Origin: Clostridiales bacterium
GTDB taxonomy: Bacteria; Bacillota; Clostridia; Christensenellales; JAISNN01
DNA: 46,270 bases
Assembly (NCBI GenBank): GCA_031275485.1
Contig: JAISOS010000044.1
Coordinates: 1 to 46,270 of the forward strand
Direction: 5' to 3'
Shown piece after piece: positions 33,262 through 44,519 of this stretch. Positions within the stretch are counted from its first letter, which is position 1; every line of letters starts with the position of its first letter. The translations under genes were made by a program, and so were the position numbers. The notes below the pieces were generated by a model, which was given only the letters and a program-made list of their open reading frames with translations, was not told the DNA's origin and searched no databases.

Positions 33262-33426
33262 GGCGACAAGCTCGCCTCTTCCTGTCCGTCTGTCCGGCGC
33301 GCGGCGCTCGATATACTTATGCGCCTCGCCCCCGCTCATATTTTAGTATCGAACCGGCACGGTTTTCGCGCGTTCCACCGCGCGCGTCTCGGAAACTTTT
33401 TTCCGCAGTTTTTCGGTTGCGGCGCA
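33262..33426 (-). pseudogene. partial tandem duplicate of the ANTAR gene 3' half
   Basis: These ~165 bp match 33466-33630 inside the ANTAR gene at an offset of 204 bp, at roughly 85-90% identity by eye. The translated piece keeps EAHKYIERRAPDRRTGRGEL but has a stop just before it (the reading of ATTTTAGTATCG), and no start. It is a decayed tandem copy of the RNA-binding domain end. Confidence 0.75.
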
Positions 33427-33438
33427 TTATTCGCCCCT

Positions 33439-34005
33439 TCAGTCGCCGTACCTCCTTAAAATTTCGGCGGCAAGCTCGCCTTTTCCTATCCGTCTGTCCA
33501 TCGCGCGGCGCTCGATATACTTATGCGCCTCGTCCTCGCTCATATTTTCGTATTGAATCAGCGCGGTTTTCGCGCGTTCCACCGCGCGCGTCTCGGAAAT
33601 TTTTTTCTGCAATTTTTCGGTTTCGGCGCGGACGGTATTCAATCGAAACGATATAGCGCGCGTAATTCTTACCGCCTCGTTCATAGGAATCGACAGCGGT
33701 TTTTCCAACACAAAAACTCCGCGGCTCTCGGCTTTTTCAAGGGTCGCGACAAACAGGTCGGCTTTGACGAACAGTAGCACGCCCGCAAAAGTTTTCTCGG
33801 CGGCGTTGACGGCAAAATCCGTGCCGAACTCGTCGGACAACGGCGTATTGACGACAATCATACTGAACTCGTTTTCCAAAAGCGCGCGCCGCGCCTTACT
33901 CGCGTAAGCCACGGTTAAGGTTTCGATATTGAAAGAACGGAAGAGGCGCGCAAGCCGTTCCGTATCCTTTTCTATCGAGGATACAACAAGGACTTTTTCT
34001 TTCAA
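33439..34005 (-). CDS. ANTAR-domain antiterminator with degenerate receiver (NitR-like)
   Basis: A 188-residue protein: receiver-like domain (1-120), a coiled linker (RAETEKLQKKISETRAVERA) and a C-terminal ANTAR domain (about 130-185) with ERAKTALIQYENMSEDEAHKYIERRAMDRR, the RNA-binding three-helix signature. ANTAR proteins bind paired hexaloop hairpins and prevent termination. The receiver lacks the acidic pocket (VVSSIEKD in place of DD) and has Asn at the phospho-acceptor site (VVNTPLSD), so phosphorylation is unlikely. It sits directly downstream of glutamine synthetase, as in clostridial NitR loci. The start appears to be TTG with GGGAG eight bases upstream. Confidence 0.88.
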   Translation of the reverse strand: MKEKVLVVSSIEKDTERLARLFRSFNIETLTVAYASKARRALLENEFSMIVVNTPLSDEFGTDFAVNAAEKTFAGVLLFVKADLFVATLEKAESRGVFVLEKPLSIPMNEAVRITRAISFRLNTVRAETEKLQKKISETRAVERAKTALIQYENMSEDEAHKYIERRAMDRRIGKGELAAEILRRYGD

Positions 34006-34466
34006 AGATTTTTCTCCCGAGCTTAGCCGAAAGGCGTTTGTTTTTCCGTATTTTTCCGCGCATATTACGCGGCGTAATCCGCGCGTTTTTATGCGTTTAC
34101 GAAATAAATATTTTTCGGCTTTTTATATCTTTTCAACCTTTCCGCAATTCACGTTGCAACGCGTTTACGGAACAAATATTTAGCGGTTCTTTATTCCTTC
34201 GTTTACACGCGCCGCGCATTGCCGTATTTGAAAACTTAACGAATACAGTTTATCACATTTTTTTTATTATGTCCAACCTTTTTAGCGCCGCGAAAACGCC
34301 GCGACGAAAAAACGGACTCGCGTTTTTTGACGTTTCCGCTTAATTCCGTAACGTTTTCGGAAATCCCGCGTTTATTCCCCGTTTCCGCGCGTCTCCGCAT
34401 ATAATAATCTAAAATCACGTATTCCGTAATTTCTCCGTAAATTTCAACGAACGCGCCGGTTTACGC
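34006..34466. other. glnA-ANTAR spacer, T-rich
   Basis: 461 bp without a gene. 34060-34180 has the degenerate T-rich texture (CGCGTTTTTATGCGTTTACG) seen at 2640, 6830 and 38485. Confidence 0.45.
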
Positions 34467-35705
34467 CTATACGATCGTCTTTTTGACCTCTATATATTTT
34501 TTCAACACCTTTTCTGGAATAACACTCGCTATAAACGGGCTGTTTTCGGCGAGGATTACGGCCTCATTCAGCGAACCCGGCAGTCTTCGCGTATTTTTTC
34601 GGTTATCCGGACTGTCGTCGTAAGGCGGACACAGCTCCGTCTCTTTCTCCACGCCCTCCAAACCCGCCGCCAGCACTAACGCGAACGCTAGGTAGATATT
34701 GCACACGGGATCGGGCGATCGCAGCTCCATATGGCAGAAATCCTTTTCGGATATGATTCTGACCAAACGGCTCTTATTATAATACGACCACGATATACGC
34801 TCCGGCGCGGTGTATTTGCCCAGCCGCGTATACGACTCTTCGACGGAATTCAAAAACAGCGACATTTCGGCGGTTCGCTCGAGTATGCCCGCTATAAAAT
34901 GCTTGGCGGTCTCGCCAGGCGCGCCGTCATTCAGCTTGAACAAATTTTCGCCGTCCTTAACTAATGTGATTTTTATGTGCATACCGTTGCCACTCAGCCC
35001 GTCCAAAGGCTTCGGGTCGAAAACCGCCGTTGCGCCGTTTCTCGCGGCGATTGTGGAAACCACCCACTTAAAGGTCATAAAATTATCGGCGGTGGTCAGT
35101 ATGTCGGAATATCTGAAATCGATTTCGTTCTGACCCGGTCCTTGCTCGTGGTGCGAGCTTTCCGGTCTTATACCCATCTTGTCGAGAGTCAAGCAAATTT
35201 CGCGCCGTATGTCCTCGCCCTTATCGAGCGGCGAAATGTCAAAATATCCGGCGTTATCGAAAGGCGTTTTCGTCGGATAGCCGTTCGCGTCGTTCTCGAA
35301 CAGATAGAACTCGCATTTGACACCCATATTGCACGAAAAGCCCATATTTTTAGCCTTCTCCCTGACGCTTTTCAAAATATTGCGGCTACTGCCCTCGAAC
35401 GCCGAGCCGTCGAATCTGAATATGTCGGAAATGAACCTTATTACCATATCGTTGTGCGAGCGCCACGGCACAAGCGAAAAGGTTTTCAAATCGGGTTTAA
35501 GATACAAATCGGCTTTTTCTATATCCAAAAAACCGTCGACCGCCGCCGTGTCGAAGGGAATCCCCTCCTCTATAGCCTTAAAAAACATGCCCGGCATAAT
35601 CGATATGTTTTTCTGAACGCCGAAAATATCGCAAAACCCTAAACGAATGAATTTTACGTCGTTTGAATTTATAAAATCGTAAAGCGACGCCTCCGTGAAT
35701 TCCAT
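34467..35705 (-). CDS. glnA: glutamine synthetase, short GSI type
   Basis: Makes glutamine from glutamate, ammonia and ATP. At 412 residues it is the compact GSI form. Motifs: DGFLDIEKADLYLKPD near 58, the metal-binding Glu in KCEFYLFEN (about 130), the ammonia/glutamate region EQGPGQNEIDFRY (about 187-199), the ATP/glutamate motif GNGMHIKITL (about 237), the Arg-containing SWSYYNKSRLVRI, and FCHMELRSPDP (about 320). The adenylylation Tyr loop of enterobacterial GSI is not evident. Start ATG has a perfect AAGGAGGT. It belongs to the split glutamate synthase locus and precedes the ANTAR regulator gene. Confidence 0.94.
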   Translation of the reverse strand: MEFTEASLYDFINSNDVKFIRLGFCDIFGVQKNISIMPGMFFKAIEEGIPFDTAAVDGFLDIEKADLYLKPDLKTFSLVPWRSHNDMVIRFISDIFRFDGSAFEGSSRNILKSVREKAKNMGFSCNMGVKCEFYLFENDANGYPTKTPFDNAGYFDISPLDKGEDIRREICLTLDKMGIRPESSHHEQGPGQNEIDFRYSDILTTADNFMTFKWVVSTIAARNGATAVFDPKPLDGLSGNGMHIKITLVKDGENLFKLNDGAPGETAKHFIAGILERTAEMSLFLNSVEESYTRLGKYTAPERISWSYYNKSRLVRIISEKDFCHMELRSPDPVCNIYLAFALVLAAGLEGVEKETELCPPYDDSPDNRKNTRRLPGSLNEAVILAENSPFIASVIPEKVLKKYIEVKKTIV

Positions 35706-35739
35706 TGTGAAACCTCCTTAGATTTTATTATTGTTTTTT

Positions 35740-35803
35740 TACTTCGCGGGGGAAACCTTTTGTAAACAAAAGGTTTCCCCCGCGCCCCTTTCCAAAAAAC
35801 TTT
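35740..35803 (+). repeat. palindromic repeat R1, copy K (reference)
   Basis: The most regular copy: a perfect 38-bp palindrome (35746-35783) made of 18-bp arms GCGGGGGAAACCTTTTGT around AA, followed by the tail CCCCTTTCCAAAAAACTTT. I used it as the consensus. Confidence 0.92.
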
Positions 35804-36060
35804 AATTTTTTTTATAATTCTATTCCGTTAGATGCCGCGCCGTCATTTTTTGCCGCAAACGCGTTTCTTGCTACTCCGCGCTTTTTGCCGGTTTCCGCGC
35901 TTCAAACTCCTTTCCCCAAAAAAATTCCGATAATTTATATCATAAAATATAACAACGCCCCGCGGCGTTTTACGCTTATGCCGATACGGCGTTTTTTTGC
36001 ATAAGAGCTCCTTTTTACAAAGCGGGCGCCGCCGGAATAAACATAAAAAAGCCGAATTTT

Positions 36061-36116
36061 TTTGAAAAGGGGAGCGGGGAAAGTTCTTTGCTCACAACAA
36101 GGATTTCCCCCGCGTA
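36061..36116 (-). repeat. palindromic repeat R1, copy L
   Basis: Inverted and decayed: GAAAAGGGGAGCGGGGAAAG, arms broken around TTCTTTGCTCACAACAAGG, ending TTTCCCCCGCGTA. Confidence 0.65.
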
Positions 36117-36141
36117 CTGACAAATAAAATTAATTAATAAA

Positions 36142-36873
36142 TCAATTATTCACATACAATTGCTTATACGGATTGCGCGTATTCGGCGTTATGCGCAAAA
36201 ATTTGCTTTCCATAATTTTGTTAAAATCGAACCCGAAAACCCTCGCGAACTCCTCTATATGCTTGGAAACTCCGGCGAGGGCGACGGCGTCCGCGCCGAC
36301 GTTTTCGGCGACAAGCCGCGGCGAAAGTCCCAGGGCGGAAGCTTTGACGCCTCTTATAAATATTTCGCCGCCGTGCATACCGTTGGCGATAGAATCGCCC
36401 GCGGGATTTTCGCGGTTTTCAAGATTTAAGAGGATTATCACGCCGCCGGCCTGGTACTCGCCCAAAAAGTTCCCCGACCCGCCGCCCGCGACTATGACGG
36501 GCCTTAATTCCTTATACGATTTTATATGCACGCCCGCGCGGTAGCCGACGCCGCCTTTGATATATATCGCGCCGCCGCGCATAGCGTAGCCCGTCGCGTC
36601 GCCCGAATTGCCGTAGATATATATCCTTCCGCCGTTCATCGTATCGCCCGTCGCGTCCTGCGCGTTGCCGTTGACGTAGAGGTCGCAATTATTGAGATAC
36701 GCTCCGAGCGCGTTGCCCGGCACGCCGTTTATCCTCAAAATTTTGTTTTCCAAACCGCTCCCGATATACCGCTGCCCGTTGCAGTTGTCCACGACTATCT
36801 CACCGTCGCCGCAATTCTTTATCTCCGCGTTCAAATCGCTGAAATATTTACCCTTAGCGTCTATAACCGTCAT
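36142..36873 (-). CDS. glutamate synthase GXGXG (beta-helix) subunit
   Basis: A stand-alone version of the C-terminal GltB alpha-subunit domain. The 243 residues form a right-handed beta helix with repeating G-x-x-G-x-x-x-G turns: LNNCDLYVNGNAQDATGDTM, GGRIYIYGNSGDATGYAMRG, GAIYIKGGVGYRAGVHI. In the holoenzyme this domain holds the amidotransferase and FMN domains apart. I prefer the ATG at 36871-36873, ten bases after AGAGGT, over a TTG nine bases upstream. It lies between the FAD oxidoreductase and glnA, all on the same strand. Confidence 0.92.
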   Translation of the reverse strand: MTVIDAKGKYFSDLNAEIKNCGDGEIVVDNCNGQRYIGSGLENKILRINGVPGNALGAYLNNCDLYVNGNAQDATGDTMNGGRIYIYGNSGDATGYAMRGGAIYIKGGVGYRAGVHIKSYKELRPVIVAGGGSGNFLGEYQAGGVIILLNLENRENPAGDSIANGMHGGEIFIRGVKASALGLSPRLVAENVGADAVALAGVSKHIEEFARVFGFDFNKIMESKFLRITPNTRNPYKQLYVNN

Positions 36874-36920
36874 TTTTTTCAATACCTCTTTTTCCTTGCT
36901 CTTGTTTAGGAAAGAATAGA

Positions 36921-36952
36921 TTTACGCGGGGAAGCCTTTCCCGAAACACTTA
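36921..36952 (+). repeat. R1 fragment, copy M
   Basis: TTTACGCGGGGAAGCC joined directly to TTTCCCGAAACACTTAA: the palindrome centre and right arm are deleted, leaving outer parts. Confidence 0.5.
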
Positions 36953-37162
36953 ATTTAATAACTACCGCATAAATAATAACGCCGCCTTAAAAAAGAACGA
37001 AAAGCCCGCGCTTTAAGCGGACGCGGCCGCGAATAAACTTTTCAAGCCGGGCGGAGATTTTTTTTCGCGTATAAAGGCAAAAGGGCGCGGAACGCGGCGT
37101 TTAATTTATATTTCGCAAAAAAACTTACCCTCGGCGCTCGACTTGAACGAAGCCGCAAAAAA

Positions 37163-37210
37163 AGCGGGGAGGATGAGACCTTTAGTTCACAAAAGGTTTT
37201 CCCCCGCGTA
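37163..37210 (-). repeat. palindromic repeat R1, copy N, overlapping a gene end
   Basis: Arms GCGGGGAGGATGAGACCTTT and AAAAGGTTTTCCCCCGC. It overlaps the last codons and stop of the FAD oxidoreductase gene (stop at 37187-37189). Confidence 0.7.
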
Positions 37211-38461
37211 AATCCCCTGTCGCGATTCCCTTCTTTTGAGGACTTCGTCGCGGAATTCCTTCGGGTAAAAATTCAGTCCCGCGTTTTCAATCAGCGCGTC
37301 GGCGTCCAAGCCGGATATATCCCGCCTTTCTCTGACGAGCGCGGTATATATGCCGGCTCTTTTGAAATCGTCTATAAAAATAAATCCTTTCAAACCGCCG
37401 TCCTTTACGAACAGTTTTTTCAGAGTGCAAGCGGAAACGGAAGATAAATCGGAAGCGGAAGCCGCCGCGAAAGAGCCTCTTTTTATTTCCTCGCCCTCGT
37501 AAATTCCGGCGGTCAGAATATGCTTGCCGAAAAAACCTATCGCGTTCATAGGCATCGCGCCGTCGTACTCCGCGCTTCCGCCCGCCATATTTATGCCCGC
37601 GGTTTCACCCTGAATATAGGCGTTGGGCAAAATCGGCGTCACGCCGCGCCTGCCCGTAACCGCGCTGAAGCTCTCCGTGCAATCGCCGGCGGCGTAGATA
37701 TACGGGTCGCCGGTACGGGAATTTTTGTCTATGAATATTCCGCGTCCGATCTCAAGACCCGCATCCTTCGCGACGGCGGTTTCGGGGGTAACGCCCGTGC
37801 AGACGCAGAGTATATCGAATTGAAAATCGTCGGGGCTTACGTCCGCCGAGAGCAGAAACTTTATGCCGCGGCTCTCCAAATGCGCCTTTATGAGCGCGGA
37901 GCTTTCGGCGTCGAGAATACTCGGCAGAACTCTGTCCGCCATGTCTACGACGGTGATTTCCGAAACCCTTTTATATATCGCCTCGGCGCATTTCAGCCCG
38001 ATTAGCCCCGCGCCGAAAATCAGAACTTTCGCGTTCTTCACGGCGTCGGTTTTCGCCTTTAATTTGAGCGCGTCGCCGAGAGTCATAAACGTATGGTACT
38101 CATATTTTTCCAGCCCGCGTATGCGCGGCACAAACGGACGCGCGCCCGTCGCGATAAGTAGCCTGCCGTAAGGCATAACCTCGCCGTTTTCCAACGCGAC
38201 GGTCTTTTTTTTCGCGTCTATTTTCACGGCGGCGACGCCTTTTTTGAGCTCGCAACCGTTTTTCTCATAGAAATCGCCGGGGCGGTATTTCATACGCTCG
38301 GCGTCGGTTTTCCCCTCCAAAAGATAAGATATAAGCGGTCGCCCGTAAACGTGATAAGGCTCTTCGCCGACTATGGTTATAAGCCCCTCCCGGTCTACCC
38401 GTCTTATTCCCTCTATACCGCCGACGGCCGCCGCCGAGTTACCTATTATGACATAATTCAT
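37187..38461 (-). CDS. FAD-dependent NAD(P)H oxidoreductase of the glutamate synthase locus
   Basis: A 424-residue pyridine nucleotide-disulfide-type flavoprotein. The FAD Rossmann motif is atypical but recognisable: VIIGNSAAAVGGIEGIRR at the N-terminus. LLIATGARPFVPRI (about 100-113), the NAD motif VLIFGAGLIGLKCAE (about 145) and IYAAGDCTESFS (about 265) follow. It resembles NADH-rubredoxin/nitrite reductase-like oxidoreductases more than GltD. It probably feeds electrons to the ferredoxin and FMN subunits. I use the ATG at 38459-38461 rather than an upstream TTG. The last residues (AGENLL) and stop are encoded by an R1 repeat. Confidence 0.88.
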   Translation of the reverse strand: MNYVIIGNSAAAVGGIEGIRRVDREGLITIVGEEPYHVYGRPLISYLLEGKTDAERMKYRPGDFYEKNGCELKKGVAAVKIDAKKKTVALENGEVMPYGRLLIATGARPFVPRIRGLEKYEYHTFMTLGDALKLKAKTDAVKNAKVLIFGAGLIGLKCAEAIYKRVSEITVVDMADRVLPSILDAESSALIKAHLESRGIKFLLSADVSPDDFQFDILCVCTGVTPETAVAKDAGLEIGRGIFIDKNSRTGDPYIYAAGDCTESFSAVTGRRGVTPILPNAYIQGETAGINMAGGSAEYDGAMPMNAIGFFGKHILTAGIYEGEEIKRGSFAAASASDLSSVSACTLKKLFVKDGGLKGFIFIDDFKRAGIYTALVRERRDISGLDADALIENAGLNFYPKEFRDEVLKRRESRQGIYAGENLL

Positions 38462-38750
38462 TCCGTAAGCTTCCCCCTGCAATTTTTTATTTTCCCGCGA
38501 ATTTTTTCGTCGTTTTTTTACGCTTCGTTACTTACATTTTTTCATTGTTCTTTAACGTTTTTCATTGTTTTTCTCCGCGTCCTTTACGCGTTTTTCAACG
38601 CCGTTCTCAGCGTTTCTTTACTCAAATTTCAGGCTCTTTTCTACGCGTTTTTTACGCTTTTTACCGACGATTTTCCGCATATTTTCCCATTGTTTTTTAC
38701 GCTTTTTATCATATAATTTTATCAGTTCCGCCGTTGAGGACTTTTATCGT
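38462..38750. other. T-rich degenerate spacer
   Basis: 289 bp between two co-oriented genes. 38485-38715 consists of TTTTT runs separated by ACG, CATTG and ACGC (for example CGTTTTTTACGCTTTTTA). No gene; no promoter recognised. Confidence 0.5.
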
Positions 38751-39173
38751 TTATTCCAAAATTATGGCTCTGTTCGGACAGTATTTGACGCACATCGGCG
38801 AGCCGCCCGAATTTTCAACGCAAAGCTCGCATTTCATAGCCGCGCCGTCTTCGCCTGCGGCTATCGCGCCGTAAGGACAAGCCAGAACGCATGTAAAACA
38901 GCCGACGCATTTGTCCTTATCGATTTTTACAACGCCGTCAACCTTTTCCAGCGCGCCGCTTATGCAGCTTTTCACGCAGGACGGCTCATCGCAATGACGG
39001 CACGAAACGGCGTATGAAATCCTGCCGCTCTCCTCGACCGTTATGCGCGTATTAATCGGCTTGTCTTTAAGCGCCGCCGCTATGTCCTTAAAACCCGAAT
39101 TAGCGTAGGCGCAAATATATTCGCACAGGCGGCATTTTAAACACCATTCCTCTTGAACGTAAATTTTCTTCAT
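38751..39173 (-). CDS. polyferredoxin electron-transfer subunit
   Basis: A 140-residue iron-sulfur protein like the HycB/DmsB electron-transfer subunits. Cysteine clusters: CLKCRLCEYIC (11-21), CRHCDEPSCVKSC (about 58-70), CVGCFTCVLACPYGA (about 89-103) and CELCVENSGGSPMCVKYCP (about 115-133). These could ligate up to four [4Fe-4S] centres. It lies between the FAD oxidoreductase and the FMN subunit and presumably relays electrons between them. ATG start with AAAGGAG about six bases upstream. Confidence 0.92.
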   Translation of the reverse strand: MKKIYVQEEWCLKCRLCEYICAYANSGFKDIAAALKDKPINTRITVEESGRISYAVSCRHCDEPSCVKSCISGALEKVDGVVKIDKDKCVGCFTCVLACPYGAIAAGEDGAAMKCELCVENSGGSPMCVKYCPNRAIILE

Positions 39174-39292
39174 CTCTTCTCCTTTTTGGAAACGGGGACG
39201 GGCGTTTTTCGCGCGTTTTATAACCGCCCAACAAACGCGGCGGCTTAACGCGCGCCGCTCCTTAAATAAAATAAATTACAAGGTTACCGTGA

Positions 39293-39352
39293 TCTTTTGG
39301 AAAGGGGCGCGGGAGAAAAGCCTTTTCTCCAAAGAAAAGGTTTCCCCCGCGC
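39293..39352 (-). repeat. palindromic repeat R1, copy O
   Basis: Inverted: CTTTTGGAAAGGGGCGCGGG, arms GGGAGAAAAGCCTTTTCT and AGAAAAGGTTTCCCCCGC. Sits between the FMN subunit and polyferredoxin genes. Confidence 0.8.
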
Positions 39353-39386
39353 AAATCCTATTTTTAAACAAAAATTTCCCGTCCGC

Positions 39387-40892
39387 CTATTCTCCCGCGT
39401 GTTTTACGCCCAGAATATCGAGTTCCTTTCGGTTCAATCCGATACCGCGCAGCATAAGTCTGTTACCTTTGAGGGCTTCTATCGAATTGATACCCATGCC
39501 GCCCATCATTTCCTCTATTTCGTGCTTCCAAGCGGTGACTAGATTGACGAGTCTTTCGCTTCCGACCTCGGGGTTAAGGCGTTTCACAAGCTCGGGGTTC
39601 TGGGTGGCTATACCCCAATTACATTTCCCCAAATGGCACGAACGGCAAAGATGGCATCCTAGTGCGAGGAGCGCGCCCGTCGCGACGTAAACGGCGTCCG
39701 CGCCAAGCGCTATCGCCTTGACGACGTCCGCGCTGTTTCTGATACTGCCGCCGACGACCAAGGAAACCTCGTTTCTTATGCCCTCTCCGCGCAGTCTTTC
39801 GTCTACGCAGGCGAGCGCAAGCTCTATGGGGATACCGACGTTATCTCTTATTCTGGTCGGCGCCGCGCCCGTTCCGCCTCGGAAACCGTCGATAGCGATG
39901 ACGTCCGCGCCGCTTCTGGCTATACCGCTCGCGATAGCCGCGACATTATGCACGGCCGCGATTTTGACTATGACGGGCTTGGAATAATTGACCGCCTCCT
40001 TTAAAGAAAACACAAGCTGTCTTAAATCCTCTATGGAATAGATATCATGGTGCGGCGCGGGCGAGATCGCGTCGGTGCCCATAGGTATCATACGCGTTCT
40101 AGACACGTCCTCGACGATTTTTTCTCCGGGCAGATGCCCGCCTATACCCGGCTTCGCGCCCTGCCCCATTTTGATTTCGATCGCCGCGCCCGCGTCGAGA
40201 TACTCCTTAAACACGCCGAACCTGCCCGACGCGACCTGCACTATCGTGTTTTTTCCGTAACGGTAAAAATCCTTATGCAGACCGCCCTCGCCCGTGTTGT
40301 AAAATATGCCCAATTTTTCCGCCGCCGCCGCGAGAGATTTATGCGCGTTATAGCTTATAGAGCCGTATGACATAGCCGAAAACATAATCGGCACGCTCAA
40401 AACCATAGGATTGCGTAGCGTATTAATCAATTCGCCACGCCCGTTCCGCTCCGCGTTTTGCGGCTTGACTCCGAGCGCGACGCGCGTCTCCATCGGTTCC
40501 CTCAACGGATCTATCGACGGATTAGTCACCTGCGAGGCGTTAACGAGAATCCTGTCCCAATAGACGGGATACGGCTCGGGCGTACCCATAGACGAGAGCA
40601 ACACCCCCCCCGAGCCCGCCTGTTTATAGACGCTCTTTATCGCCGCGTCGTTCCAGTTCGCGTTGTCGCGGTAGACGTTCGGATTTTTTATTATTTTCAG
40701 CGCGCGCGCGGGACACAGCGAAACGCACCTCTGACAGTCCACGCAGGACATACTGTCCGAGGTCATTCTCCCAAGCTCCGAGCTGTAGGCGTGCACAAGA
40801 TTGGCGCATTGCCTCTCGCATACGCGGCAGTCTATGCACCGCTCTCTGTCGCGCGTAACTTCGTATATATTATCATCGTAATTTATAGGCAT
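39387..40892 (-). CDS. glutamate synthase FMN/Fe-S core subunit
   Basis: The central GltB domain as a separate 501-residue protein with an N-terminal ferredoxin module. Residues ~15-75 have CIDCRVCERQC and CVDCQRCVSLCPARAL. The barrel carries FSAMSYGSIS, NTGEGG, KMGQGAKPGIGGHLPG (about 225-240), SPAPHHDIYSIEDL, GADVIAIDGFRGGTGAAP and the FMN phosphate site GGSIRNSADVVKAI. The 3Fe-4S motif is GCHLCRSCHLGKCNWGIATQ. It makes two glutamates from 2-oxoglutarate and channelled ammonia. Start chosen at the ATG 40890-40892 with AAGGA eight bases upstream; an earlier TTG is in frame. Confidence 0.94.
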   Translation of the reverse strand: MPINYDDNIYEVTRDRERCIDCRVCERQCANLVHAYSSELGRMTSDSMSCVDCQRCVSLCPARALKIIKNPNVYRDNANWNDAAIKSVYKQAGSGGVLLSSMGTPEPYPVYWDRILVNASQVTNPSIDPLREPMETRVALGVKPQNAERNGRGELINTLRNPMVLSVPIMFSAMSYGSISYNAHKSLAAAAEKLGIFYNTGEGGLHKDFYRYGKNTIVQVASGRFGVFKEYLDAGAAIEIKMGQGAKPGIGGHLPGEKIVEDVSRTRMIPMGTDAISPAPHHDIYSIEDLRQLVFSLKEAVNYSKPVIVKIAAVHNVAAIASGIARSGADVIAIDGFRGGTGAAPTRIRDNVGIPIELALACVDERLRGEGIRNEVSLVVGGSIRNSADVVKAIALGADAVYVATGALLALGCHLCRSCHLGKCNWGIATQNPELVKRLNPEVGSERLVNLVTAWKHEIEEMMGGMGINSIEALKGNRLMLRGIGLNRKELDILGVKHAGE

Positions 40893-40918
40893 ATTCTTTG
40901 TCCTTAATTTCAAAAGGG

Positions 40919-40979
40919 TTTATGCGGGGAAACCTTTTGTGAGCAAAAGGTTTCCCGCGCCCCTTTCCGAAAAGCTTCA
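40919..40979 (+). repeat. palindromic repeat R1, copy P
   Basis: Arms GCGGGGAAACCTTTTGTG and GCAAAAGGTTTCCCGC, tail CCCCTTTCCGAAAAGCTTC. Confidence 0.88.
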
Positions 40980-41298
40980 ATATTTTTATTTATAATCATA
41001 CGGGCTTTATCGCAGGTTGTCCGCTGTTTTTGTCCGTCGTTACCGGATTTTCTCCCGCCGCTCGGTAAGCCGGAGCGCAATTCCCACTAAAAGCCATCTG
41101 AACGCGCCCTCTTCGTCCGAAACGCTTTTCCTTAACTCTTTTGCTTGATAAAACGCGTTCAATAAACGCGTTCAGCTCCTTAACGGAACCGTTTACGGCG
41201 CGTTTTCCGCTAAGTCCGTTTGCGTTGCGGCGGGTTGCAAGCCGTTATATTCCGTTACCGCTCGGCGGCGTTCGCGCCGTTAAAACACCGGTACTTTC

Positions 41299-41358
41299 GG
41301 GAAAGGGGGGAACCGTAGAAAAGCCTTTTGTTCAAAAAAGGTTTCCTCACGTGTAAAT
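41299..41358 (-). repeat. palindromic repeat R1, copy Q
   Basis: Inverted: CGGGAAAGGGGGGAACC, arms GAAAAGCCTTTTGTTC and AAAAAAGGTTTCCTCACG. More decayed than O and P. Confidence 0.65.
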
Positions 41359-41387
41359 ACGCATTTATCAAAAAATCAGACTAATTC

Positions 41388-42566
41388 TCACACGACCGCG
41401 TTTTCTTTCAGCTTAATCAAAACGGCTTCGCCGCCCGAAGGCGCCCAAACGCGGTCGAGAGACGGCTCTATTTCGCGTATCGCGCATTCCTCGCTCGCGA
41501 TATAGACGGTATTTTTATTTTCGCCTACAACCATAGAGCGGAGTTTGAGCCGGTCGTTCAGGGCAAGCAATCCGCCTTTGAAGCCGACGATGATTGAGAA
41601 CGGTCCGGTTACGAGAAGGCTCGGGTACGCGGTTCTAAGATATGTGAGCCGGCTTTTGTCGGGCTCTTCGAGGGTTTTAATCTTTTCCCAAAAGGGCGCG
41701 GCTATTATTTCGGCGGTCTCGGTCAGGGTATGCTTTTTCCGTCTGACAAGATAGTCCCATATATAGGTTATGACCTCCGTATCGGTTTGGAGCGTACATT
41801 TATAGCCGAACATTTCGATGAAACGCCGGTTCGCGTCGTAGGATGAGATCTCGCCGTTGTGGACTACCGAAAAATCGAGTATGGCGAACGGGTGCGCGCC
41901 GCCCCACCAGCCGGGAGTGTTCGTGGGATATCTACCGTGCGCTATCCACGAATAGCCCGCGTACTCGTCGAGGCGGTAGAAACGCGCCACGTCCTCGGGA
42001 AAACCTACCGCCTTAAACACGCCCATGTTCTTTCCGGACGAAAAGACGAAAACGCCTTTGAATTTCGTGTTTATACTAAACACGCAACGTAGCGCGTACT
42101 CGTCCTCGTCGAGCTGGCTGTCGTTTAGCTTGGTGGGGAGCGGCGCGACGAAATACCGCCAAATCAACGGCTCGTCGGTTATTTCCGGAATTTTTTTCGT
42201 GGGAATTTTCGATAGATTGATTATATCAAAATGCGCTTCGAGAAAGCTCTCGCATTCGGACTTCGCTTCCGCGTCGGTATAAAAAATATGCAAAGCATAA
42301 AAATCCTTATATTCCGGATAGATACCGTAACCCGCGAAACCGCCGCCCAAGCCGTTCGACCTGTCGTGCATAACGGATATCGACCGTGCGACCGCGCCGC
42401 CGTCTATCCTATCGCCGTCTTTGTTTATTATGCCCGATACGGCGCAACCCGACGGAATTCTGACCTCGCCCTCTTTTTTTCCCGCAATCGGCGTCCGCGT
42501 CGGCGCGCCGTCGTCGACGCGGTTTACGGCAAACGGCGAAATTCTGATTTTACCTTCTGTTTTCAT
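41388..42566 (-). CDS. glutamate synthase amidotransferase (class II, Ntn) subunit
   Basis: A 392-residue class II glutamine amidotransferase corresponding to the N-terminal GltB domain. The probable nucleophile is Cys41 in SGCAVSGIINKDG. Because Ntn enzymes need an N-terminal Cys, the first 40 residues may be a cleaved propeptide, as in some GltB and PurF proteins. Other motifs: HDRSNGLGGGFAGYG, the glutamine-binding HGRYPTNTPGWWGGAHPF (about 210-228) and VVHNGEISS (about 233-241). First gene of the nitrogen locus. It has only a weak ribosome site (GGGAT). Promoter, hairpin and terminator are in its leader. Confidence 0.9.
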   Translation of the reverse strand: MKTEGKIRISPFAVNRVDDGAPTRTPIAGKKEGEVRIPSGCAVSGIINKDGDRIDGGAVARSISVMHDRSNGLGGGFAGYGIYPEYKDFYALHIFYTDAEAKSECESFLEAHFDIINLSKIPTKKIPEITDEPLIWRYFVAPLPTKLNDSQLDEDEYALRCVFSINTKFKGVFVFSSGKNMGVFKAVGFPEDVARFYRLDEYAGYSWIAHGRYPTNTPGWWGGAHPFAILDFSVVHNGEISSYDANRRFIEMFGYKCTLQTDTEVITYIWDYLVRRKKHTLTETAEIIAAPFWEKIKTLEEPDKSRLTYLRTAYPSLLVTGPFSIIVGFKGGLLALNDRLKLRSMVVGENKNTVYIASEECAIREIEPSLDRVWAPSGGEAVLIKLKENAVV

Positions 42567-42608: not shown

Positions 42609-42733
42609 TTTATATGCGGATATATCCCGCGGTTTATATGCGATATAATGCCGGTAATTCCGCGGTTTATATGCGGTTTATACGTAATTACCGAGCGGTT
42701 TATATGCGAACATATTCTGCAATTTATTATGCG
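42609..42733 (+). promoter_or_regulatory. phased array of 14-bp motifs in the glutamate synthase leader
   Basis: GCGGTTTATATGCG occurs at 42629-42642, 42662-42675 and 42695-42708, with a variant at 42673-42686 (GCGGTTTATACGTA) and partial TTTATATGCG or TTTATTATGCG copies at 42609 and 42723. Start-to-start steps of the full motifs are 33, 11 and 22 bp, all multiples of 11. It lies between the leader terminator and the amidotransferase ATG. Confidence 0.65.
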
Positions 42734-42768
42734 ATCGCGCAATAAAAATTAAAATTATACCGAATTAT

Positions 42769-42805
42769 AAAAAAAGTTCGCTATTTTTTTATCAAAACAG
42801 CGAAC
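42769..42805 (-). terminator. leader terminator (attenuator) of the glutamate synthase locus
   Basis: Minus strand: 7-bp arms GTTCGCT/AGCGAAC, extended by a G-T and four T-A pairs around a short loop, then seven T residues. It ends only about 50 nt after the predicted transcript start and about 200 nt before the first gene, so it must be bypassed for expression. Confidence 0.75.
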
Positions 42806-42816
42806 GCCTTTGTTCG
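42801..42816 (-). promoter_or_regulatory. hexaloop hairpin overlapping the terminator (ANTAR-type antiterminator candidate)
   Basis: Minus strand: 5-bp stem CGAAC/GTTCG with loop AAAGGC, that is A at loop position 1 and G at 4, the residues ANTAR proteins recognise. Its 3' arm is the first five bases of the terminator 5' arm, so the two structures exclude each other. Only one such hairpin was found; classical ANTAR sites have two. Confidence 0.5.
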
Positions 42817-42826
42817 ATTGGAATAA

Positions 42827-42855
42827 ATTATATCATATAAACGGCGGTTTGTAAA
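42827..42855 (-). promoter_or_regulatory. promoter of the glutamate synthase locus
   Basis: Minus strand: -35 TTTACA (42850-42855), a 17-bp spacer, and -10 TATAAT (42827-42832) preceded by TGA. Start predicted near 42820. Confidence 0.75.
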
Positions 42856-44003: not shown

Positions 44004-44089
44004 TGGTGCCGGAGACCGGACTCGAACCGGTACGGGGTTGCCCCCGAAGGATTTTAAGTCCTTTGCGTCTGCCATTCCGCCACTTCGGC
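44004..44089 (-). tRNA. tRNA-Leu (UAA)
   Basis: 86 nt including an encoded CCA. The acceptor arm starts GCCGAAG (44083-44089) and ends CTCCGGC-A-CCA, with one A-C mismatch in the stem. The anticodon arm is AAGGA-CTTAAAA-TCCTT, giving anticodon UAA. There is a long variable arm (CGGGGGCAACCCCG) and a T arm with GGTTCGAGTCC, as in class II tRNAs. Confidence 0.93.
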
Positions 44090-44096
44090 ATATTTT

Positions 44097-44170
<74 letters not shown>

Positions 44171-44279
44171 GTATATAACGAAAATAAGAAAAAGACGCGC
44201 AACGCCGCGCAAAAAGTTAATAGAGAAAATTCCGAAAACCGCGCGGATTCCGTCCGGGACTTACCGACGGCACGGTTTT

Positions 44280-44405
44280 CAATTTGCAAAGCGAATTTCG
44301 ACCGGCAAAACGAAGCTCGGATTTACTTAAAGAATCCCGATTGGCAAAACGAAGCCCGGATTTATAAAATAAGTTTAAATTTACAAAACGGCTTCCGAAT
44401 TTGAG
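44280..44405 (+). repeat. short degenerate repeats between tRNA genes
   Basis: GGCAAAACGAAGCTCGGATT (from 44304) and GGCAAAACGAAGCCCGGATT (from 44343) are nearly identical, 39 bp apart, with weaker relatives at 44283 and 44380. Confidence 0.5.
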
Positions 44406-44444
44406 AAAACAAATTCCGATTCACGGAACAAATTTTTAATTTTT

Positions 44445-44519
44445 TGGAGCGGGAAACGGGATTCGGACCCGCGACATTCGCCTTGGCAAGGCGACGCTCT
44501 ACCACTGAGCCATTCCCGC
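44445..44519 (-). tRNA. tRNA-Gly (GCC)
   Basis: 75 nt with CCA. Acceptor GCGGGAA pairs with TTCCCGC; discriminator T, then CCA. D arm GGCTCAGTGGTAGAGC, anticodon arm CGCCT-TGCCAAG-GCG region giving GCC, T arm GGTCCGAATCC. It lies 275 bp upstream of tRNA-Cys. Confidence 0.94.

Follow-up and report, generated by a model that had tools for sequence, protein, structure and literature searches.

The window, by which we mean the whole stretch of 46,270 nucleotides analysed here, carries on its minus strand a cluster of glutamate synthase (GOGAT) and glutamine synthetase genes that ends with a gene for an ANTAR protein and is preceded by a short leader. In the direction of transcription the features are:

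42855-42850, minus strand: -35 box TTTACA
42832-42827, minus strand: -10 box TATAAT, with TG ahead of the box and a 17-bp spacer to the -35 box
42816-42801, minus strand: single putative antiterminator hairpin CGAAC[AAAGGC]GTTCG, loop at 42811-42806 with A1 and G4
42805-42776, minus strand: intrinsic terminator GTTCGCTGTTTT-GATAAA-AAAATAGCGAAC, 12-bp stem, z -6.2
42775-42769, minus strand: U-tract of seven Ts, directly 3' of the terminator
41388-42566, minus strand: GltB1-like class-II glutamine amidotransferase (GOGAT amidotransferase subunit), first gene after the leader (Pfam GATase_2, 1.1e-8)
39387-40913, minus strand: glutamate synthase (FMN/Fe-S) domain protein GltB2 (Pfam Glu_synthase, 2.5e-138)
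38751-39173, minus strand: 4Fe-4S ferredoxin-like electron carrier (Pfam Fer4_11, 1.1e-14)
37187-38482, minus strand: pyridine-nucleotide-disulphide oxidoreductase subunit (Pfam Pyr_redox_2, 1.9e-47)
36142-36882, minus strand: GltB3-like GXGXG-domain protein (Pfam GXGXG, 7e-25)
34467-35705, minus strand: type I glutamine synthetase GlnA (Pfam Gln-synt_C, 4.4e-88)
33439-34005, minus strand: ANTAR protein with pseudo-receiver (Asn53) and ANTAR domain, candidate antiterminator protein (Pfam ANTAR, 4.5e-13)

A preliminary description of this DNA had proposed a promoter, an ANTAR-type hexaloop hairpin with the loop AAAGGC and an overlapping terminator with seven Ts, and all of these are present on the minus strand. 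The promoter matches the consensus at 11 of 12 positions. It does precede the hairpin as proposed, but the distance, given as about 5 nt, needed correction: the 5-bp stem begins 10 nt past the -10 box and, with the +1 expected about 7 nt past that box, about 3 nt into the RNA. The letters GTTCG belong to both structures, as the 3' arm of the hairpin and the 5' arm of the terminator, and the two folds are mutually exclusive. Folded alone, the hairpin reaches -4.0 kcal/mol (z -3.4) and the terminator -15.8 kcal/mol (z -6.2). When the whole leader is folded the terminator prevails and grows into the loop, where AAAGG pairs with UUUUU of the U-tract. The hexaloop has the features published for ANTAR targets, namely six nucleotides with A1 and G4 on a stem of at least 3 bp and a 3' arm that overlaps an intrinsic terminator. 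A covariance model of the element, R1, scores the window hairpin at 36.5 bits, its sole match in the window genome. Rfam searches of the window and the leader loci, at gathering and relaxed thresholds, returned only tRNAs and chance matches; an rli56 hit on L128 (E 1.4) lies far under the gathering score of that family and was rejected.

Some further observations concern the surroundings of the leader. Between the terminator and the start codon (42613-42733) lie three to four copies of a unit of about 33 nt with the core CGCATATAAACCG, which occurs only once elsewhere in the window genome. Three tRNA genes (Leu-TAA, Cys-GCA and Gly-GCC) are found on the minus strand upstream of the cluster, at 44004-44519.

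The downstream genes are likewise as the preliminary description had claimed, with a glutamate synthase locus and an ANTAR gene at its end. No other intact ANTAR gene was found in the window genome. Directly behind the cluster's own copy (33280-33414, minus strand) sits a decayed partial copy of its 3' end, which has an in-frame stop and still scores 27 bits to PF03861. At the other end of the cluster the amidotransferase bears an N-terminal extension of about 30 residues (42477-42566, minus strand) that is absent from relatives and looks as if part of the normal start had been repeated (EGKIRI / EGEVRIPSGCA). The genes from GOGAT through glnA to ANTAR (34006-41387, minus strand) are separated by gaps of 200-475 nt, and terminator-like sites occur between cluster genes at 37022-37004 and 35969-35954.

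A compact version of the same cluster is found in G551, a genome with 29 cohesin domains and a 1853-codon scaffoldin frame that holds nine cohesins, which we take to be Clostridium thermocellum ATCC 27405. Its seven cluster genes are identical in kind and order to those of the window, with glnA adjoining the ANTAR gene; they nearly touch, in contrast to the wide gaps of the window, and the operon may have been loosened in the window's genus. A single-hexaloop leader (42 bits) precedes this cluster, and glnN is divergent. For strain DSM 1313, one report describes the cluster Clo1313_2030-2036 as co-expressed and suggests the ANTAR protein Clo1313_2030 as an antiterminator (PMC4676874). Deletion of the glnA that adjoins the ANTAR gene deregulates nitrogen metabolism, according to the title of a further study (Rydzak 2017, cited in PMC9888227).

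Is the leader a peculiarity of one contig, or is it shared with relatives? Among 61 genomes examined, 26 have an orthologue of the amidotransferase, and the element lies upstream of the gene in 22 of these 26 relatives (order Christensenellales); in about 21 of the 26 an ANTAR gene closes the same cluster. When R1 was run over 247 genomes of the order, its top matches stood ahead of this gene in 11 more genomes. The amidotransferase alignment was then used to search GTDB genomes, which yielded 80 loci, from Clostridia and from a small number of Spirochaetes, Coriobacteriia and others. About 58 of the 78 loci not already seen carry the element, 54 by an automatic rule and four (L129, L176, L185 and L201) accepted by eye. 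Since the automatic rule required A1 and G4, these two letters are not independent evidence among the 54. Two other loci, L148 with G1 and L163 with a shorter loop, look like variants of the element.

The conservation was also assessed by a scan that made no demand on the loop letters and accepted any promoter followed by a 5'-end hairpin with a loop of 4-8 nt and an overlapping terminator. This rule-free scan found the arrangement at 67 of 104 orthologous loci, versus 16-32 in shuffled sequences. A1, A2 and G4 were present in 42 of the 43 six-nucleotide loops, and ten rounds of shuffling gave no A1/G4 hexaloop. A second covariance model, R2, applied class-wide, hit 52 of 293 genomes at E<=0.001, some of them already-seen genomes that were found again. 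Matches of the pattern within coding genes (L065, L067, L068, L071, L072 and L085) were set aside as chance, and four R1 or R2 matches (L176:16218 before a phosphofructokinase gene, L178:13069 in genes, L118 before a ROK-like gene, and L204:5369) as probable chance or plain terminators.

The leader is not found everywhere. Two of the six genomes of the window's genus (G001 and G005) have kept the ANTAR gene and lack the leader; in G001 (L007/L088) the promoter is preserved near letter for letter (TTTACA...TATAAT) while the hairpin and the terminator are gone. In another genome of the genus, G004, the leader is present and the ANTAR gene was undetected on a contig that stops just after glnA. 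About 18 of the GTDB amidotransferase loci have no leader, most of them with an ANTAR gene. In family f31 (L013 and L016) the amidotransferase leader is absent, and CAGC[AAAGGC]GCTG, overlapped by a terminator, is found instead at a divergent upstream gene that is probably glnN; as the hairpin stands on the divergent side only, ANTAR may control that side only. The absence of the leader in G001, G005 and f31 thus implies that the control can be lost. The same GOGAT cluster, mostly with the same leader, also appears in records assigned to Spirochaetes (L184, L191, L200, L202 and L180) and Coriobacteriia (L190), which points either to horizontal spread or to mis-binned contigs.

Which parts of the leader are held constant? 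The preliminary description had named a terminator conserved without the hexaloop as the contrary case, and the relatives have the opposite: the hexaloop letters are conserved and the terminator drifts in length and sequence, with its overlap with the 3' arm of the hairpin maintained. Over 23 leaders the closing C-G pair, A1, A2, G4 and the next T are unchanged, and A1, A2, G4 and the closing pair are the best-conserved letters of the leader. The loops seen in relatives are AAAGGC, AAAGGA, AAAGGG, AAGGGA, AAGGGC, AATGAC, AAAGAC and AAAGAT. The pair next to the closing C-G is A-U or G.U, the latter in 30 of 87 leaders, and four pairs of the stem have been altered on both sides, a degree of covariation reached in 4 of 500 shuffles.

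Two simpler explanations of this conservation have to be considered. The loop also supplies the 5'-terminal part of the terminator arm, and pairing there could by itself keep the loop letters constant. Loop positions 5 (G or A) and 6 (any base) indeed covary with their partners in the terminator arm, and this accounts for both of them and perhaps for A1 and A2. It does not account for G4, which is G in all 86 leaders scored, including the 31 where the terminator partner is U and an A would pair better. The other explanation takes the inverted repeat at +1 as a DNA operator for a repressor or activator, with a terminator that is coincidental or an ordinary upstream one. GAAC-N6-GTTC is a near-perfect palindrome centred just past +1, the classic position of an operator, and its stem letters are strongly conserved. 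Yet a G.U pair keeps an RNA helix and breaks a DNA palindrome, so that the frequent G.U at the second pair fits an RNA hairpin; the segment between the arms is asymmetric with three invariant letters, the terminator arm covaries with the loop, and the 3' arm is always the terminator arm as well. We regard an operator as very improbable and dropped this reading because the stem admits G.U pairs and the loop is asymmetric with invariant letters.

The constrained letters are, in turn, those that ANTAR proteins are known to recognize. The determinants established for EutV (A1, G4 and the AC..GU closing pairs; PMC3369931) are matched by the conserved letters of the leader, and in the crystal structure of EutV the G4 base points out of the loop and stacks against the protein (PMC8934654), which the invariant G4 fits.

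The protein encoded at the end of the cluster scores 49.2 bits to the ANTAR domain (PF03861), versus a curated cut-off of 27.3. It matches EutV, Rv1626, AmiR and NasR, over its full length for EutV and Rv1626, with a profile match of 6e-36 to EutV. An AlphaFold2 model (pLDDT 92) predicts a receiver, a long helix forming a coiled coil and a three-helix ANTAR domain, the architecture of EutV, and Foldseek places the model closest to Rv1626 and RNA-bound EutV (6ww6, TM 0.78); for 1qo0 the TM is 0.67. The phospho-acceptor Asp of EutV and Rv1626 is replaced by Asn53, and Asn occupies this place in more than 90% of 31 cluster proteins. Judged by its sequence, the protein is a member of the ANTAR family in a pseudo-receiver branch, and would hence not be switchable by the usual Asp phosphorylation. 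Glu157, His161 and Met169 are invariant among the 31 proteins. The RNA-contact residues of EutV were mapped by alignment (the chain index is the number in the paper plus 2): Met169 takes the place of EutV Met172, with Met in all, His161 that of Tyr164, and EutV Arg142 and Arg168 have become Thr/Ile and Glu. Since Tyr164, Arg142 and Arg168 are not kept, the grip on the RNA must differ in detail from that of EutV. AmiR of Pseudomonas is likewise a pseudo-receiver protein without a phospho-acceptor and has His at the place of Tyr164; AmiR is held by the amide sensor AmiC, whereas no AmiC-like gene was seen in the window cluster.

The same leader stands in front of other genes, too. It was found before glmS (L128), guaA (L174), gdhA (L176, L181, L164, L173, L128 and L126), glnN (L160, L198, L183, L170, L166, L233 and L248), amtB (L127 and L222), asnB (L184 and L244), pyrG (L108), purB (L082), purC (L236 and L252) and glnA (L227, L238 and L251). 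HMMs called the families glmS, gdhA, glnN, guaA, amtB with P-II, asnB and pyrG, and the glnA, purC and purB targets were recognized by eye from translations. Going by these assignments, the genes behind the leader act in ammonia assimilation and purine synthesis or encode enzymes that use glutamine. Does the leader travel with ANTAR genes? In 49 nearly complete genomes, counted as if related genomes were independent, R1 matches of at least 28 bits occur in 17 of 29 with an ANTAR gene versus 1 of 20 without (Fisher p=1.8e-4). At E<=0.02, R2 found 1-3 sites in each of eight leader genomes and none in seven ANTAR-less control genomes of the order. Within genomes that bear the amidotransferase the comparison is uninformative, because nearly all of them carry ANTAR.

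This association bears on the possibility that the hairpin-terminator switch is real and the hairpin is stabilized by a factor other than ANTAR, such as another RNA-binding protein or a small molecule. The own-genus genomes that have ANTAR and no leader, a few leader genomes that show no ANTAR gene, and the changed EutV contacts would all be compatible with this. Against it, the published ANTAR determinants recur exactly in the loop and its closing pairs, leader matches track ANTAR genes, most genomes have the ANTAR gene within the cluster itself, 16 nt are too small for a known metabolite sensor, and no Rfam family matched the leader. We therefore consider such a factor unlikely. The suggestion in the preliminary description of an ANTAR-type hexaloop in competition with a terminator is strengthened by the conserved loop, the mutually exclusive folds and the co-occurrence with ANTAR genes.

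The leader departs from known systems in the number of its hairpins. The known ANTAR antiterminators, eutP/EutV of Enterococcus, nasF/NasR and amiE/AmiR, are dual-hexaloop sites. For EutV, deletion of either P1 or P2 abolishes induction, and both hairpins are needed in vivo (PMC3369931); antitermination is said to require both (Walshe 2022, PMC8934654), and NasR binds a lone P2 only at about 12 uM (PMC7496416). On the other hand, the crystal structure and SPR gave one EutV dimer per hexaloop, and the same authors redefined the binding unit as a single hexaloop and called for work on natural single sites, which they expected only where the timing of the polymerase is irrelevant, for example in sequestration or at an RBS (Walshe 2022, PMC8934654).

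The leader shares with the dual sites the A1/G4 hexaloop, the closing C-G and A-U pairs, the 3' arm in common with a terminator, a nearby ANTAR protein and nitrogen genes as targets. Where the dual sites have a pair of hairpins joined by a linker, of which the first is obligatory in the EutV model, the leader has one, placed at the 5' end of its RNA. Two stem-loops joined by a short linker, as published for dual-hexaloop sites, are found neither in the window nor in the leader family. The preliminary description had noted one hairpin where two are usual and suspected a minimal or variant site; the comparison bears this out, and a single hairpin is what the family as a whole has, rather than the outcome of a local loss.

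Could a first hairpin nevertheless be hidden, with a weak stem, another loop or a promoter farther upstream? All known ANTAR attenuators have two, a further promoter-like site lies upstream in the window (42931-42903), and in L014 and L027 the promoter is 30-55 nt from the hairpin. However, 77 of 87 leaders have a promoter scoring at least 8 of 12, with a TTGACA-like -35 box, directly ahead of the hairpin, and the gap between the -10 box and the stem has a median of 8 nt in relatives (10 nt in the window). With a +1 about 7 nt past the -10 box, most of the RNAs would start with the hairpin, which leaves no space for a first one. A second A1/G4 hexaloop was not above chance either upstream (5 seen versus 4.2 expected from shuffles) or downstream of the hairpin (6 versus 7.0). 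A canonical two-hairpin site with a cryptic first member is, in our view, most unlikely.

Individual leaders show other layouts. In the glnN leader of L063 (G039, bases 1460-1530) a hairpin GCGGATCG-CAAAGA-CGGTCCGC directly precedes GAACAAAGGCGTTC and a terminator; this may be a two-hairpin site whose first loop is displaced by a single base. L198 (about 7680-7531), L173 (about 821-677) and L164 (about 7830-7683), read on the minus strand, seemingly have two attenuator units in series, in which a further CAANGGCGTCTT hairpin stands downstream, before glnN or gdhA.

Taken together, the leader is very probably a transcription attenuator under the control of the ANTAR protein of the same cluster, in which one hexaloop hairpin replaces the usual two; that conclusion is drawn from comparative sequence analysis. 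In such a switch, RNA polymerase would start about 3 nt ahead of the hairpin, and a free, active ANTAR protein would grip the loop once the first 20 or so nucleotides have emerged, with G4 flipped onto the protein. The bound hairpin would sequester the 5' arm of the terminator, and the polymerase would continue into the GOGAT genes, glnA and the ANTAR gene, with a reach that is perhaps limited by the possible internal terminators in the 200-475-nt gaps. With the ANTAR gene inside its own read-through, this would form a positive loop. Without free, active ANTAR, the hairpin would open, and its 5-bp stem and loop would pair anew with the downstream arm; the much stronger terminator so formed would leave an RNA of about 50 nt.

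What would free the protein? We infer binding by ANTAR, an on-state under nitrogen or glutamine shortage, and the nature of the signal. As the receiver has no phospho-acceptor Asp, the protein probably takes its signal from a partner protein, in the manner of AmiR. The reported deregulation upon deletion of glnA in C. thermocellum makes the neighbouring type I GlnA a candidate sensor, and our first choice would be this protein, as a guess.

How much of this is new? ANTAR control of GOGAT genes has already been predicted in Desulfotomaculum (Ramesh 2012, PMC3369931). ANTAR-type regulators beside glnA/GOGAT have, as here, been proposed as antiterminators of nitrogen assimilation, namely NitR of solventogenic Clostridium and Clo1313_2030; the text consulted on them describes no one-hairpin RNA target, unlike the case in the window (PMC4676874, citing earlier work). 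A literature search, mainly of open-access papers, found no description of single-hexaloop attenuators. The novelty appears to be the single hairpin, ANTAR control of GOGAT genes being known as a prediction. Unlike the sequestration or RBS cases expected by Walshe 2022, the single sites described here appear to be transcription attenuators.

A broader reading is conceivable, although we rate it as somewhat short of probable: widespread one-hexaloop ANTAR attenuators, together with a dedicated pseudo-receiver subfamily, could constitute a main glutamine/nitrogen regulon of Clostridia, comprising GOGAT, both glutamine synthetases, GDH, AmtB and several glutamine amidotransferase enzymes. The recruitment hairpin that the EutV model calls for would then be replaced by placing the hexaloop at the very 5' end, and type I GlnA, encoded beside the ANTAR gene, would be the sensor that holds or frees the protein.

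All characterized ANTAR attenuators have two hexaloops, and the leader family apparently offers dozens of natural attenuators with one, at the same position of the RNA over many families of Clostridia from gut and soil. This makes two questions testable: does placement at the 5' end stand in for a recruitment hairpin, and can an ANTAR protein that is free of phosphorylation work on one loop? For the poorly studied gut Clostridia and for C. thermocellum, the family provides a candidate regulon and a candidate RNA element for the control of nitrogen metabolism.
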